Both the position numbers and the translations under genes were made by a program. The notes under the pieces are model-generated. The model made no database searches and was not told the DNA's origin. It saw only the letters and a list, made by a program, of their open reading frames with translations. A DNA stretch of 64,000 bases from Haloarcula halophila (GTDB taxonomy: Archaea; Halobacteriota; Halobacteria; Halobacteriales; Haloarculaceae), in the NCBI RefSeq assembly GCF_029278565.1, contig NZ_CP119560.1, positions 248,001 to 312,000 of the forward strand. Reading direction: 5' to 3'. Shown one piece after another: positions 48,245-53,502 of the stretch. Positions within the stretch are counted from its first letter, which is position 1. The number at the start of each line of letters is the position of its first letter.

Positions 48245-50698
48245 TCACTCCTCGCGGAGCTTCTTCCGGATTCGGTCGGGTGTCACGGGGATGCGGTCAG
48301 CGGTTATGTCGAACGGCTCCAGTGCGCGGTTGATCGCCGTGGCGATACTCGCGGGGCCGTCGATCATTCCCCCTTCACCCGTCCCTTTCGCGCCGGTCGT
48401 CGTGAACGGCGACGGCGTCTCCGTGTGTTCGAGGTGCATCTCGGGGATGTTCTTCGTCGACGGCAACAGGTAGTCGAAGAGCGTGACGGCCTGTGGTTGC
48501 CCGGACTGGTCGTAGGAAAACTCTTCGAGCAACGCCGCGCCGATCCCCTGGGCCAACCCGCCGTGGGCCTGGCCCTCGACGATCGTCGGGTTGAGCTGTG
48601 TGCCACAGTCCCGCAGCGAGTAGAACTTGAGCACTTCTATCTCGCCGGTTTCGATGTCGACTTCCACGATGGGGGCGTTGGCAGCGAAGGCCGCCGTCGG
48701 GTAGACCGGATACTTCTGCGTGAGCGCTTCCCCGAACTCCTCGACGTCCAACACCGGGAACTCGTAGTCGTACTCGGCGTAGGTCAGCCGGTCGCCGTCG
48801 GTTTCCCCATCGATCTCGACGAGGTCGGCACGGCTGAGCCGCTCGGTTCCGTCCGCACGTTCGACGCCGCCGTCACGGTAGAGGACCGCCTCCTGGTCGA
48901 CGTCCCAGTGCCGGGCGGCGAGCCGTTCGAGGTTGTCGACGACCGTCTCACCGAGCCCTTCCGTCGCGCCGGAGAGCATGACAGCCATCCGGGACGCGGC
49001 ACTGCCGTACTCCGTCGGTGCCTCGACGCTGTCGAGGTAGTCGACCTCGATGTCGCTCGGCAGGATCTCGAGCTGGTCGGCTAGGAGCTGTTTGACGATG
49101 GTCTGGTGGCCCTGACCCGACGAGTCGGTCGCCAGGTAGGTGCGGACGGTCCCGTCGGCCTCGATCTCACAGCGGAGGTGTTCGGGCAGTTCGTCGACGT
49201 CGTCCATCTCACGGTCGGCGAGTGCGTCCCGGTCGGACCGTTGTCGGTCCGTCCAGTCGGCCCCGCTGACTCCGGGTTCGATGTGGACGGTGTAGCTGAC
49301 GCCGCGGTACTTCCCGTCCTCGCGTTGCAGTTCGACGGTCTCCGGGTCAAGGAGCCCGCCCTCTGTCCGTTCCTCCTCTTCGATGAGTTCCTTGATCCGT
49401 GCGAGCGCCTCGGGGAAATCACCAGAGTCGTAGATGTTCTTCGAGGGGAGCTTGTACGGCATCTGCTCGGGCTGGATGAGGTTCTGCTGTCGGAACTCGT
49501 AAGGGTCCATCCCGAGATCGTAGGCGGCGTCGTCGACGACGGACTCCAGCGCGTAGAGGTGCGGGTCGACGCCGAACCCGCGGTAGGCAGTCTGGGCGGT
49601 CTTGTTCGTGAGGACGAGTTCGTAGTTGTACCGGACGGGTTCGATGTTGTAGGCGTTGGTGACGACCGAGAGCGGTTTGAGCGCCTGATTGACCGGGTAG
49701 TGGGGGTACGCTCCGAAGTCGTCGACGAAGTTCACGTCGAGACCCTGGATGGTCCCGTCGTCGTCGTACGCAAGCCGCATCATGTACTCCCGGTCGGAGC
49801 AGTGCATATCTCCGCCCTGGAGGTTTTCGATCCGGTCCTCGACGTATTTGACCGGGCGTCCGTCGAGTTGCTGGCTGGCCATCGCCGCGAGCGTACAGTA
49901 GCGGTGGATCGCGATCTTCGTCCCGTAGCTCCCCCCGACGTCCGGCGGGACGTTGAGCCTGACGTCGTCGGGGTCGTAGCCGAGCGGTTCGTAGATGGTG
50001 TCGTCGACCAGCGTGTGGAGCTGGATGTTACAGTCGATATCGAAACTGTCGGCCTCCTCGTCGTACTCGGCCACGACGCCCGCGGTCTCCAGTGGGACCC
50101 CCGAGATACGACCCCACGAGTACTGGTCCTCGATGACGTTGTCCGCGTCCTCGAAGGCTTCGTCCACGTCACCGAAGGTCAGCCGCTCCTTATCGGGGAC
50201 GTTCGTCCCCAGCTCTTCGTGGACGAGTGTCTCGTCCTGTCTGGCCGTGACGGGGTCCGTGATCGCCTCCTTGGTGTCGTATTCGACGTCGATGCGGTCG
50301 ATGAGGTCCTCGACCACGTAGCGGTCGTCGGCCACGACCAGTGCGACCGGCTCGCCGACGAACCGGACCGTATCGCGGGCAAGCGCCCACTCGGACATGC
50401 TATCGAGGCCACACGGCATCGGGTTGTACTCAGCGGCGATGTCCTCGCCGGTCAGGACGAGGTCACAGTCGGGGTGGTCTTCGGCGGCGCTGGTATCGAT
50501 GTCGACGATATCGGCGTGGGCGTGTGTCGTCCGGAGCAGGCCCATGCTCAGGCAGGCCTCCGGAGTGATGTCGTGGACGTACTCCGCGCGACCGGTCAGG
50601 ATCCGGTGGTCCTCGACCCGGTTGAGTCCCGTCCCGACGAACGTCTCCTCGTCCGGTTCGTCCTGCATCTCGTCCGGGGCGGCTTCGGACCGCGACAT
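48245..50698 (-). CDS. Xanthine dehydrogenase/aldehyde oxidase-family molybdenum subunit (CoxL-like)
   Basis: 817 residues. The N-terminal a/b hammerhead part includes GTGLNRVEDHRILTGRAEYV. Cofactor-site blocks are TAYRGFGVDPHLYALE (about 365-380) and VEAPTEYGSAASRM. The catalytic-Glu motif is TGAKGTGEGGMIDGPASIAT (about 770-789). The active-site loop reads AYRGFG, not the AYRCSFR of true CO dehydrogenase, so CO is unlikely. Hydroxylation of a purine, aldehyde or N-heterocycle is expected. Its ATG overlaps the small-subunit stop. NCS2 permeases nearby hint at xanthine or another nucleobase. Confidence 0.9.
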   Translation of the reverse strand: MSRSEAAPDEMQDEPDEETFVGTGLNRVEDHRILTGRAEYVHDITPEACLSMGLLRTTHAHADIVDIDTSAAEDHPDCDLVLTGEDIAAEYNPMPCGLDSMSEWALARDTVRFVGEPVALVVADDRYVVEDLIDRIDVEYDTKEAITDPVTARQDETLVHEELGTNVPDKERLTFGDVDEAFEDADNVIEDQYSWGRISGVPLETAGVVAEYDEEADSFDIDCNIQLHTLVDDTIYEPLGYDPDDVRLNVPPDVGGSYGTKIAIHRYCTLAAMASQQLDGRPVKYVEDRIENLQGGDMHCSDREYMMRLAYDDDGTIQGLDVNFVDDFGAYPHYPVNQALKPLSVVTNAYNIEPVRYNYELVLTNKTAQTAYRGFGVDPHLYALESVVDDAAYDLGMDPYEFRQQNLIQPEQMPYKLPSKNIYDSGDFPEALARIKELIEEEERTEGGLLDPETVELQREDGKYRGVSYTVHIEPGVSGADWTDRQRSDRDALADREMDDVDELPEHLRCEIEADGTVRTYLATDSSGQGHQTIVKQLLADQLEILPSDIEVDYLDSVEAPTEYGSAASRMAVMLSGATEGLGETVVDNLERLAARHWDVDQEAVLYRDGGVERADGTERLSRADLVEIDGETDGDRLTYAEYDYEFPVLDVEEFGEALTQKYPVYPTAAFAANAPIVEVDIETGEIEVLKFYSLRDCGTQLNPTIVEGQAHGGLAQGIGAALLEEFSYDQSGQPQAVTLFDYLLPSTKNIPEMHLEHTETPSPFTTTGAKGTGEGGMIDGPASIATAINRALEPFDITADRIPVTPDRIRKKLREE

Positions 50699-51210
50699 CA
50701 GTCTTCGTCCTCCATCTTGTCGGCCGCAGTTTTGACGGCGTCGTAGATGTTCTGGTAGCCGGTGCATCGACAGATATTCGAGGAGAGATGGGACTCCATC
50801 TTCTCCTGTGAGGGGTCGGGGTCCTCTTCGAGGAGGTCACGGGTCGACATCACGAACCCGCTCGTACAGAACCCACACTGGAGGGCGTGTTCCTCGTGGA
50901 ACGCTTCCTGGATCGGGTGGAGCGAGCCGTCCTCGCCGAGCCCCTCGACCGTCACGATCTCGCCGCCGTCGGTCTGTACCGCGTACATCATGCAGCTTTT
51001 GACCAGATCGCCGTCGAAGCTGACCGTACACGCGCCACAGACCCCGTGTTCGCAGCCGACACGGACGCCGTTCAGATCCACGTAGTTCCGGAGGAAATCG
51101 GAGAGCTTCAGGCGCGGCTCGATCTCCGCAGTCACCTCTTCCCCGTTGACCGTCAGAGAGACTTCCTGTGTTGGGCGGTCGGGAGTCGCCGCTGCGTCAT
51201 CCGTACTCAT
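50698..51210 (-). CDS. Molybdoenzyme 2Fe-2S subunit (CoxS-like)
   Basis: 170 residues with two cluster sites: plant-type VGCEHGVCGACTVSFDGDLV and its later Cys (about 51-73), then HALQCGFCTSGFVM and SNICRCTGYQNIYDAV (about 110-155). It passes electrons from the molybdenum centre to FAD. The operon order medium, small, large is readable on the minus strand: it starts 75 bases after the coxM stop, and its stop overlaps the large-subunit start. Confidence 0.94.
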   Translation of the reverse strand: MSTDDAAATPDRPTQEVSLTVNGEEVTAEIEPRLKLSDFLRNYVDLNGVRVGCEHGVCGACTVSFDGDLVKSCMMYAVQTDGGEIVTVEGLGEDGSLHPIQEAFHEEHALQCGFCTSGFVMSTRDLLEEDPDPSQEKMESHLSSNICRCTGYQNIYDAVKTAADKMEDED

Positions 51211-51285
51211 GATTGTTAGACACCTTCAAGCAAAGGCTGTCAGCGCCTTAAACCTGTTCCAACGTATCGCATTGCCCGGCCGTCC

Positions 51286-52173
51286 TCAGGCGATCGCTCG
51301 GTCGTAGGCGGTCCGGAGCGCACGCTTGGTGTACTCGCGGGCCAGTTCCCGCTTGTACGTCTCGTCCGCGTGCATCTCGGCCGCCGGACTGACCCGCTCG
51401 TAGGCGATCTCGCCGGCGTTTTCGACCGTCGCGTCGACGAGCGGTTCGCCCTCGACCGCTGCCTCGACGGCTTCGATCCGCAGCGGAACGTCCGCGGCGT
51501 TTGCCAGCCCGATGCGGGCCTCCTCGACGGCTGGTTCGGCAGCGTCGGGGTCGTCGACGCGAACCGCGCCCGCGACGCTGAGCGTCGGCCACGTCTGTGC
51601 CGCCCGTTTCTGCCCGAGGAAGGTCATCCCGGTTCGGGCGGCCGGGAACGGATCGGAGGGGAACCGGGCGGCGGTGATGAGTTCGTCCTCCTCGATGTCG
51701 GTCATCATGTAGGCGATGAAGTAGTCGTCCGCGTCGACCGTGCGCCGGCCGTCCGTCGACGCCAGTTCCAGTTCACCACCCATCGCGACGAGGACACAGG
51801 GGTAGTTGCCGGCGGGATCGGCCTCGCCGATACTCCCACCGATGGTACCGCGGTTCCGGACAGTCGGCCCGGCGATCTGTCCCGCCGACTCGGACAACAC
51901 CGCGTACTCTTCGGTCAACACGTCCGAGTGCTCGATATCGCGGTGGCGGGTGAGTGCGCCGACGTCCACGGCGTCACCGGTCGCGTCGATGTGAGAGAGT
52001 TCGTCGATAGCGTTGATGTCGATGATGTGGTCCGGGTTGGCGAGGCGATTGGCCATCACGATACTCAGCGACTGGTTTCCCGCCATCAGTTCCGCCTCGG
52101 AGAGGTCGGCCAGCAACGTCACCGCCTCCTCGACGGTTTCAGGGCGGTGGTACTCGAACGCTGAGGGTTTCAT
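51286..52173 (-). CDS. Molybdoenzyme FAD-binding subunit (CoxM-like)
   Basis: 295 residues. FAD-site segments are LMAGNQSLSIVMANRLANPD (about 31-50), which replaces the usual AGGxS/T loop by AGNQS, and TVRNRGTIGGSIGEADPAGN (about 104-123), which is standard. The C-terminal domain ends RALRTAYDRAIA. It takes electrons from the 2Fe-2S subunit. Its ATG overlaps the stop of a 27-codon upstream ORF in the ATGA manner, so translation may be coupled. A promoter with TTATTAT lies about 115 bases upstream. Confidence 0.92.
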   Translation of the reverse strand: MKPSAFEYHRPETVEEAVTLLADLSEAELMAGNQSLSIVMANRLANPDHIIDINAIDELSHIDATGDAVDVGALTRHRDIEHSDVLTEEYAVLSESAGQIAGPTVRNRGTIGGSIGEADPAGNYPCVLVAMGGELELASTDGRRTVDADDYFIAYMMTDIEEDELITAARFPSDPFPAARTGMTFLGQKRAAQTWPTLSVAGAVRVDDPDAAEPAVEEARIGLANAADVPLRIEAVEAAVEGEPLVDATVENAGEIAYERVSPAAEMHADETYKRELAREYTKRALRTAYDRAIA

Positions 52174-52253
52174 TCTGTGCCACGCACCTCCGGGTGGCCG
52201 TGACAGTCGATCAGGTCGCGTGCAGTCGCTCGTGGTGCGCTATCTGGCCACAT
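52170..52253 (-). CDS. Short upstream ORF (27 codons) overlapping the coxM start
   Basis: The ORF starts with an ATG at 52253 and reads MWPDSAPRATARDLIDCHGH, then ends PEVRGTE. Its TGA overlaps the coxM ATG. The TATA element at 52284-52291 is about 27-38 bases before it, so this ATG, not that of coxM, is the first start codon of the predicted mRNA. It may be a leader peptide for translational coupling or attenuation, or a real small protein. No function known. Confidence 0.45.
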   Translation of the reverse strand: MWPDSAPRATARDLIDCHGHPEVRGTE

Positions 52254-52283
52254 ATTGTCGATGAAGATACTCCGTCCAGTGCG

Positions 52284-52291
52284 ATAATAAG
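52284..52291 (-). promoter_or_regulatory. TATA box of the molybdoenzyme operon
   Basis: On the minus strand CTTATTAT is centred about 34 bases before the short ORF at 52253. It predicts a transcript starting near 52260 that covers coxM, coxS and coxL. Confidence 0.5.
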
Positions 52292-52302
52292 TGTTGTTGT
52301 CG

Positions 52303-53445
52303 TTATTCCGGTATCCTCGGGTGAATCGGGCCGTCGCGGTCCCGAAGTCGTCCCCCCTCACAGCCGTTACTGACCGCCAGTGCCTCCGCGACGATGCTGA
52401 GCGCGATCTCCAGCGGTTCGCCCCCGCCGAGATCGAGGCCAACGGGCGTCGAGAGCCGTTCAAGCGCCGACTTCGGGAGTTTGACGCCGTCCTCCGCCAT
52501 CGACTCCCGAAGCTCCTTGAACCGCTCGCGAGGACCCATGAGACCGACGTAGGGTACCTCGGTCTCCGTGAGGAGTGTCTCGACGGCGAGGCGGTCGTCG
52601 ACGAGGTTGTGCGACATGACCACCGCGTACGTGTGCTGGTCGGTCCCGACGCTGTCGGTTATGGTGGTCGGGTGTCCAGTCGTCACCGTGTCCGCGTGGG
52701 GGAACGTCGACTCGTCGACGCCCCCACGGGGGGAGTGGACGGTGACGCGGAAGCCGACATCGGAAGCGAGACGTGCCAGCGGCGGCAGGTCGTTCTGGCT
52801 CCCGAAGAGGAGCAGGTCCGAGACCGGCTGGAGGCTGTCGACCAGCACGGTCGCCGACCCGATATCGACCGTTTGGGTGCTCCCCGTCCCGTGTACTCGG
52901 TCGATCGTGTCACCGATGGCGTCGAGGAGTGTCGTCGGGACCGGTTCACGGTCGGGGACGGCCTCGCGTGTCCCGTCGGCTCCGACGACGGTTCGACTCC
53001 CGATCGGGGTGTCGCCCGACCCGTCGACGACCGTGAGCACGGTCGCCGGGTCGCCGTTGTCCAGCATCGCCAGCGGCCGGTCAACACTCGCGTCCAGCGG
53101 TTCGACGAAGAGGTCGATGACGCCGTTACAGCCCAGCCCCAACCCCCAACTGTCGTCGTCGGAGTCCAGCAGATCGAACACCTCGATCCGTGGCTGGCCG
53201 GTGGCGAGTATCTCCTGGGCGAGATCGACGACCGGTTCCTCCAGACAGCCCGCGGTGACCGCACCGGCGGCCTCCCCGTCAGCCGGGACGAGCATCTTCG
53301 CACCGGGTCGGCGATACGCGGACCCGTCGACGGCCGCGACGGTAACGACCGCGGCGTCCGCGTCGTTCCGGCGGAGCGAACGCATCTGTTCCCGGAGATC
53401 CGTTTCGGTAACACTCCAGGGATCTTCGGACGTAGCCTGTGTCAT
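52303..53445 (-). CDS. XdhC/CoxI-family molybdoenzyme maturation factor
   Basis: 380 residues. The N-terminal XdhC/CoxI part has VAAVDGSAYRRPGAKMLVPA and the Cys-containing GAVTAGCLEEPVVDLAQEIL (about 70-90). The C-terminal Rossmann domain starts SDLLLFGSQNDLPPLARLAS. XdhC proteins bind the molybdenum cofactor, deliver it to the apo-enzyme and help sulfuration. The position upstream of coxM fits. The possible TATA AACTTAACT (about 53468-53478, minus-strand sense reversed) would give a leaderless start at 53445. Confidence 0.9.
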   Translation of the reverse strand: MTQATSEDPWSVTETDLREQMRSLRRNDADAAVVTVAAVDGSAYRRPGAKMLVPADGEAAGAVTAGCLEEPVVDLAQEILATGQPRIEVFDLLDSDDDSWGLGLGCNGVIDLFVEPLDASVDRPLAMLDNGDPATVLTVVDGSGDTPIGSRTVVGADGTREAVPDREPVPTTLLDAIGDTIDRVHGTGSTQTVDIGSATVLVDSLQPVSDLLLFGSQNDLPPLARLASDVGFRVTVHSPRGGVDESTFPHADTVTTGHPTTITDSVGTDQHTYAVVMSHNLVDDRLAVETLLTETEVPYVGLMGPRERFKELRESMAEDGVKLPKSALERLSTPVGLDLGGGEPLEIALSIVAEALAVSNGCEGGRLRDRDGPIHPRIPE

Positions 53446-53502
53446 ACTGTCACGTTAGTCCTCCGATCAGTTAAGTTGCCGATCTCTCCGGGGCCGGTGA
53501 GC

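Follow-up and report, generated by a model that had tools for sequence, protein, structure and literature searches.

A 27-codon upstream ORF (uORF), which ends on the start codon of coxM in the 64-kb stretch of haloarchaeal DNA analysed here (the window), probably serves as a near-leaderless entry cistron: ribosomes would load on it at the 5' end of the message and would be handed over to coxM by termination and reinitiation. We give this reading a probability of about 0.7. The conserved frame and the pattern of Shine-Dalgarno (SD) sequences among relatives together lead us to infer entry at the uORF and hand-over to coxM. As judged from the comparison of loci, the conservation of the frame across the coxM family is not a matter of chance, and the peptide is nearly unconstrained while the frame is kept. 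Since the frame is preserved and the peptide hardly so, the uORF probably hands ribosomes on and does not encode a useful small protein.

The upstream ORF, its promoter and its operon

Translation of the minus strand from 52253 to 52170 gives 27 codons followed by TGA, with the peptide MWPDSAPRATARDLIDCHGHPEVRGTE. The plus strand at 52170-52253 does not encode the uORF; the earlier sequence-only reading, which had reported the ORF and its overlap with coxM, had given no strand. The uORF is placed between an XdhC-family gene (end 52303) and coxM (start 52173), and the overlap is confirmed, with the TGA (52172-52170) sharing bases with the coxM ATG (52173-52171) and the frame being kept in relatives. 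Taken alone, this overlap is weak evidence because the TGA is forced by the Met-Lys start of coxM (ATGAA), and for the same reason the question of chance is decided only by the relatives. Haloarcula sp. GH36 has an identical uORF (80/80 nt, compared with 865/888 in coxM), which carries no weight because GH36 is a near-clone in which too few differences are expected; no CDS is annotated at the uORF position in the GH36 record, whose gene table is possibly incomplete. The peptide has no Pfam match at E up to 10 and no NCBIfam match at E up to 1e-5. Its CHGHPEV stretch resembles what we take to be a DUF371 N-terminus. A DUF371 fragment was considered and rejected: the one DUF371 match of the same genome lies elsewhere and has no internal stops, and BLASTP of the uORF against that protein gave an unrelated 6/17 match (E 0.032 in a single comparison).

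Features of the coxM leader and its surroundings in the window
Feature	Position	Strand	Basis or score
BRE/TATA-like element ACAACA-CTTATT	52286..52297	-	TATA score 6.9, total 8.5
Probable transcription start zone	52255..52263	-	28-36 nt past first TATA base, from GH36 distances
27-codon upstream ORF (putative entry cistron)	52170..52253	-	translation; ATG at T+38
Shine-Dalgarno GGAGGTG within the uORF, 11 nt ahead of the coxM ATG	52185..52191	-	predicted pairing -13.2 kcal/mol
ATGA stop/start overlap of uORF and coxM	52170..52173	-	sequence
'coxM', FAD-binding subunit, xanthine-dehydrogenase-family molybdenum hydroxylase	51286..52173	-	PF00941 8e-50, PF03450 5.3e-15
XdhC-family gene, just upstream of coxM	52303..53445	-	PF13478, PF02625
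Enzyme subunits	48245-50767, 50698-51210, 51286-52173	-	all miss cut-offs of every NCBIfam model matched

The TATA box CTTATT (52291-52286), with ACAACA directly before it, begins 12 nt past the end of the XdhC gene, and the uORF ATG follows 38 nt on. Its score of 8.5 is the highest among the nine gene starts scanned, as the best sites in the 200 nt before the other eight reach 3.1-7.3, and only two sites on the minus strand of the window attain this score of 8.5. The sequence-only reading had called it the only well-placed TATA box of the operon. It is indeed the best-scoring one, but the wording is slightly too strong, as weaker TATA-like sites are found 30 nt before XdhC (5.8), 32 nt before the alcohol dehydrogenase gene (6.2) and 42 nt before coxS (7.3). 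In the annotated DNA of GH36, the distance from a strong TATA box to the start codon peaks at 28-36 nt, a range that holds for 20 of 30 genes; with its ATG at T+38, the uORF would therefore be preceded by no leader or by a few nucleotides.

The minus-strand genes, named after the GH36 annotation, encode a CocE-type hydrolase, CoxG, an alcohol dehydrogenase, an MFS transporter, a CaiB transferase, XdhC, coxM, a [2Fe-2S] subunit and a molybdopterin subunit. The coxM product is a 295-aa FAD_binding_5/CO_deh_flav_C protein, which scores below the cut-off of all seven NCBIfam models matched. The label coxM is not to be taken as a sign of CO dehydrogenase: the large subunit falls below both curated CO dehydrogenase cut-offs, scoring 453.6 bits on NF040766, the NCBIfam model that it matches best (cut-off 950), and 366.8 bits on TIGR02416 (cut-off 991). 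The two smaller subunits are nearest to glyceraldehyde dehydrogenase subunits, also below the cut-off (211.5 of 350 and 208.5 of 290), and the closest solved chain for the large subunit is that of quinoline 2-oxidoreductase 1t3q (370 bits), with the CoxL chain 8uem second (337.6 bits). Genes for nucleobase transporters, a cytosine permease, a cytosine deaminase and amidohydrolases lie close to relatives of the enzyme genes, and this neighbourhood suggests a nucleobase or another N-heterocycle as the substrate to be oxidized.

Conservation of frame and Shine-Dalgarno pairing among coxM loci

The coxM orthologues came from named contigs (49 loci), from 19 of 146 genomes (E<=1e-40), from 45 of 391 genomes (E<=1e-75) and from 18 more stretches. 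L010 and L057, lacking upstream DNA, and L001 (a DUF371 locus) and L080, with no match, were dropped before the set of 95 unique loci was reached. Sixty-three of the 95 were kept, with at least 49% identity to the window coxM and upstream DNA present; 30 lay below 49% identity, and in L071 and L021 the matches begin inside the protein. Plasmid loci L126, L127 and L131 were examined but are not counted, and L128-L130 repeat counted genomes. The nearest orthologues, from Haloarcula sp. GH36 (97.6%) and Halosimplex carlsbadense (78%), mark the window as haloarchaeal. A TATA box was picked by score alone and taken as usable if it scored at least 4.5 and lay at least 60 nt before coxM; the shuffle test omitted the nine of 63 loci in which the TATA score was <4.5 or coxM lay within 60 nt of the TATA box. 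Leader ATGs were counted from T+30, and expectations were drawn from dinucleotide shuffles of the same leaders. Genus labels are the analyst's own, with code g3 divided into two labels and separate labels for paralogues and unplaced MAGs.

A TATA box that is usable by this definition is present in 54 of the 63 loci, and 43 of these 54 leaders contain an ATG. In 42 of the 43, the first leader ATG opens a frame that ends on the coxM start (hereafter coupled), compared with 9.7 expected from the shuffles. Loss of the reading frame in relatives, which the sequence-only reading had named as evidence against its own proposal, was thus checked and did not occur; as an architecture, the leader ORF coupled to coxM that it described is well supported by these 43 ATG-bearing leaders. 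Counted by genus or paralogue label, 20 of 21 are coupled, for a nominal P of about 1e-12 if the labels were independent, a value not to be taken literally because the genera are not independent. The junction is ATGA in 40 of the 42 coupled loci, GTGA in L062, where coxM starts with GTG, and TGATG in L063. The sole exception, L004 (on the same contig as L033), still leads to coxM through two chained mini-ORFs, a 7-codon ORF overlapping (ATGA) a 20-codon ORF that ends on coxM as TAATG. When ATGs are counted from T+18, 37 of 43 leaders are coupled, as five Natrialbaceae loci then have an ORF of 2-4 codons first.

The coupled frame stands out in other ways as well. The coupled loci show 13 different distances from the uORF ATG to coxM (32-149 nt, or 11-50 codons), all of them in frame, and all leader ATGs taken together distribute over the three frames as 46:4:1, with the coupled frame first. 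Stops are present in the other two frames in 38/43 and 37/43 leaders and in the coupled frame in 5/43; of these five, three lie before the uORF ATG (L040, L082 and L104), one is the TGATG junction of L063 and one belongs to the chain of L004. A coxM tree, built with a quick method and SH-aLRT support only, requires at least six changes in the presence or absence of the uORF. In this tree the coupled loci L040 (ATG at T+108) and L124 (T+69) fall within a clade of Halorussus relatives in which the six remaining members have no leader ATG.

A chance ORF, that is, an incidental ATG before a gene that starts with Met-Lys, would have its TGA supplied by ATGAA in any case, and for the window as a single locus the shuffles give a coupled frame with a probability of 0.20. 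Such an origin could hold only for the window on its own; across the family it is refuted by the excess of coupled frames over the shuffled expectation, so that we regard chance as having practically no weight. Genes screened in GH36 point the same way, with only 2 of 16 leader ATGs coupled. This control comprises 91 annotated genes from three plasmid stretches, each preceded by 70 nt or more of free DNA, and among the 16 with a leader ATG, six ORFs end upstream, three run into the gene in another frame and five are in frame with it; annotated starts were used, some perhaps wrong, and the five in-frame cases are possibly mis-called. GH36 has leader ORFs that end on the start codon before an aldehyde dehydrogenase gene (L132 11299-12741, minus; 15 codons) and a hypothetical gene (L134 34014-34322, minus; 24 codons).

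The distance from the TATA box to the uORF ATG, 38 nt in the window against the GH36 peak of 28-36 nt, ranges from T+30 to T+108 in relatives. Coupled uORFs begin at T+30 or T+31 in 2 of 42 loci, at T+36 to T+39 in 14, at T+43 to T+48 in 19 (Natrialbaceae, by genus names or family code) and at T+61 or more in 7. From these distances, most messages should begin at the uORF or at most about 20 nt before it; however, the T+43 to T+48 group and the seven loci at T+61 or more are longer than truly leaderless messages would be. In 5 of the 63 loci coxM itself lies at T+31 to T+38 and the uORF is missing, as if an entry cistron and a leaderless coxM start could replace each other. In Natrialbaceae (for example L037, L046, L058 and L060) we also noticed by eye a recurring stretch like GGTATCCGTGTGACCGACACATGA, ~25-50 nt past the TATA box, which spans the expected transcript start, shows a partial TGTGT..ACACA symmetry and is perhaps an operator.

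The GGAGGTG inside the window uORF matches the anti-SD GGATCACCTCC, which occurs twice in its own genome and is presumably the 16S rRNA 3' end. According to the parts of PMC6728339 that bear on this, haloarchaea use SD sequences in reinitiation at overlaps and not in 5'-UTR initiation, and SDs would therefore be expected before coxM chiefly where it is coupled. The median predicted pairing before coxM is -9.3 kcal/mol in the 43 uORF loci (L004 included) versus -3.3 kcal/mol in the 11 ATG-free ones (p=1.6e-5; at genus level p=0.018, with 21 versus only 3 labels). When coxM overlaps a preceding coxL, as in L056 and L117, pairing reaches -19.0 and -17.6, respectively. Several coupled loci have a weak SD (L040 -2.3, L065 -3.2, L039 -3.4 and L097 -3.6). 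GGAGGTG also precedes the CoxG gene of the window (58205-58188, minus), and the annotated coxM and coxG genes overlap by 4 nt in Haloarcula sp. JP-L23 (L127 4891-4894) and Halorussus caseinilyticus (L131 4885-4888); coupling may extend past coxM into coxG.

Eleven of the 54 usable leaders contain no ATG, and coupling is therefore not indispensable in every lineage. Leaders without ATG from T+30 are those of Halorussus (L041, L042, L048, L095, L096 and L110) and Haloarchaeobius (L049, L052, L108 and L113), which have weak SD pairing and almost no stop in any frame. A uORF with a non-ATG start was considered for the ATG-free leaders and rejected: stops occur in 0 (coupled frame), 2 and 0 (other frames) of 12 loci, and the open coupled frame is uninformative because nearly all other frames are open too.

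What the upstream ORF may do

According to the entry-cistron reading, transcription would begin a few nucleotides before the uORF ATG, as the TATA distance indicates. Ribosomes would enter the message at its 5' end, which is the main route in haloarchaea as reported for Haloferax volcanii, would translate the 27 codons, terminate at the TGA overlapping the coxM ATG and reinitiate there, aided by the internal SD. As the comparison of loci shows, selection preserves the uORF start codon, its open frame and its overlap with coxM, and hardly the peptide. The mini-ORF would thus let the leader serve coxM expression, much as a leaderless bicistronic cassette would, but of natural origin. Points that support this reading are the coupling in 42/43 leaders, the 13 in-frame lengths, the behaviour of L004, L040 and L124, the SD pattern, the weak constraint on the peptide and the coxM loci at T+31 to T+38, while the 11/54 ATG-free leaders, the long TATA distances, the count of 37/43 from T+18, the weak SDs, the non-independence of the genera, for which the tree requires no more than six changes of uORF state, and the pN/pS values of Halobacterium and g28 oppose it.

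Constraint on the peptide was assessed in nine groups of related loci, comprising the 30 of 42 coupled loci that have near relatives. Pooled pN/pS is 0.74 in the uORF frame and 0.95 and 1.14 when the same nucleotides are read in the two remaining frames, whereas coxM as a control gives 0.13-0.30 in eight of the nine groups; the 1.27 of coxM in the Halogranum group probably reflects indel misalignment, the control having been compared ungapped. Purifying selection of the kind expected for a functional small protein was thus not found in these 30 loci. GC content by codon position is flat in the uORFs (64/65/66%, versus 73/46/83% in coxM), their peptides are basic (K+R 18% and D+E 9%, versus 7% and 20% in coxM), and a composition similar to that of the uORF frame is seen when this DNA is read in its other frames. 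The sequence-only reading had considered a small protein made with the enzyme and had proposed synonymous-site bias in relatives as a check; in view of the pN/pS, the codon-position GC and the basic peptides, this proposal is poorly supported. The pooled ratio does lie slightly under those of the other frames, and it drops to 0.53 in the Halobacterium group and 0.39 in the g28 pair, where weak peptide constraint is possible, but five of the nine groups reach at least 0.88, uORF lengths vary several-fold, and the window peptide matches no Pfam or NCBIfam model. A functional small protein co-made with the enzyme therefore strikes us as very improbable. More generally, conservation of a frame does not necessarily imply conservation of its peptide, which calls for caution in small-protein annotation.

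Two other explanations leave the peptide out of account or make use of its translation only. Under a purely negative constraint, ribosomes that load at the 5' end would start on whatever early AUG they meet, so that an uncoupled one would be harmful and removed, while a coupled one would be tolerated and unneeded. This would fit the rarity of uncoupled leader ATGs and the 11 leaders of Halorussus, Haloarchaeobius and L043, which do without an ATG and pair weakly with the anti-SD; mere tolerance, however, predicts neither a set distance for the ATG, as seen in the T+36 to T+39 and T+43 to T+48 groups, nor SD enrichment that tracks the uORF, and we consider it unlikely, albeit the strongest competitor. 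Less likely still is a regulatory leader, in which translation of the uORF would sense codon supply, a ligand or termination on untranslated RNA and so control the operon. Conserved leader translation would suit such sensing, closely related clades have N-terminal patterns in common (MxxHTTHxYR and MSHTNNR, for example), uORF translation together with a riboswitch is described for Mycobacterium tuberculosis (PMC11260477), and a review mentions FttA-linked polarity in archaea (PMC12548453). Yet no single-residue run is common to the 42 peptides by eye, no Rfam match appears at E up to 1 in 51100-53500, and the window leader folds no better than its shuffles (z +1.19). The signs of amino-acid attenuation are accordingly absent, with no common codon run among the 42 peptides and no unusual fold in the window leader, and a strong RNA element was likewise rejected on the Rfam result and, for the window only, on a fold weaker than the shuffle mean. 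A role of the uORF as a shield against termination is possible.

The entry-cistron reading could be extended to a general haloarchaeal rule: ribosomes loading at the 5' end would take the first AUG, and SDs would serve only for reinitiation; a leader would be either AUG-free or occupied by a mini-ORF that ends on the gene start; and peptide-free entry cistrons would form a standing class, invisible to annotation and swapping with leaderless starts. We regard this extension as tentative and rather doubtful. The GH36 genes, with 2/16 leader ATGs coupled, speak against a general first-AUG rule, although they make a weak control.

Relation to known systems

Coupled leaderless small ORFs in mycobacteria were the subject of a 2015 study in PLoS Genet, of which Shell is reportedly the first author. 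In its passages on this subject, such 'coupled' ORFs, joined by RTGA, are over-represented (PMC4633059, PLoS Genet 2015). The coxM uORF is similar in that an unannotated small ORF opens the message and ends in a TGA sharing bases with the RTG start codon of the annotated gene. Unlike the mycobacterial case as those passages present it, which is bacterial and backed by transcriptome and ribosome-profiling data, the coxM uORF is known from sequence alone; it also differs in forming one orthologous family across many archaeal genera with almost free turnover of the peptide.

Within the haloarchaea, 72% of H. volcanii coding transcripts are leaderless according to the relevant part of PMC4983044. 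Of 14 overlapping gene pairs studied (9 from H. volcanii, 5 from E. coli), 13 showed strict coupling, and removal of the SD weakened most, not all, of the H. volcanii pairs and abolished none, as stated in sections of PMC6728339. These haloarchaeal pairs (Huber et al. 2019, PMC6728339; 2023, PMC10666635) resemble the coxM junction in their ATGA or TGATG overlaps and in the SD within the upstream frame. They differ in that, in the portions of both papers that describe them, their upstream partners are annotated genes, and the terms uORF and small ORF are absent from the main text of PMC6728339 and PMC10666635. The H. volcanii uORFs located in long 5'-UTRs (PMC4983044, BMC Genomics 2016) are also haloarchaeal, 15-31 codons long and accompanied by TSS data; unlike the coxM uORF, they are taken as valid small-protein genes by their low isoelectric points, and stop/start coupling does not appear in the passages of PMC4983044 that deal with them. 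A leaderless bicistronic design in Corynebacterium glutamicum (PMC10367133) uses a fore-cistron on a leaderless promoter to drive a gene, and according to a section heading of that paper, its strength requires both the SD motif and translation of the fore-cistron. That design is engineered and bacterial, unlike the coxM uORF. A passage of a 2025 review (PMC12548453) notes that short ORFs could deliver ribosomes to a coupled gene.

Full-text searches, judged by title and abstract start and with subscription journals mostly outside their reach, returned no report of a conserved entry cistron of this kind in archaea. To our knowledge, it is still an open question how leadered haloarchaeal messages are translated without SD initiation. 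The coxM family offers a natural series for it, with genes that would be leaderless, coupled to a uORF, behind an AUG-free leader or coupled to a real gene; in this series coupling is accompanied by strong SD pairing, and the question is therefore testable by reporters. Altogether, leaderless coupled small ORFs and haloarchaeal reinitiation are both known, and what is unusual here is the depth of conservation.
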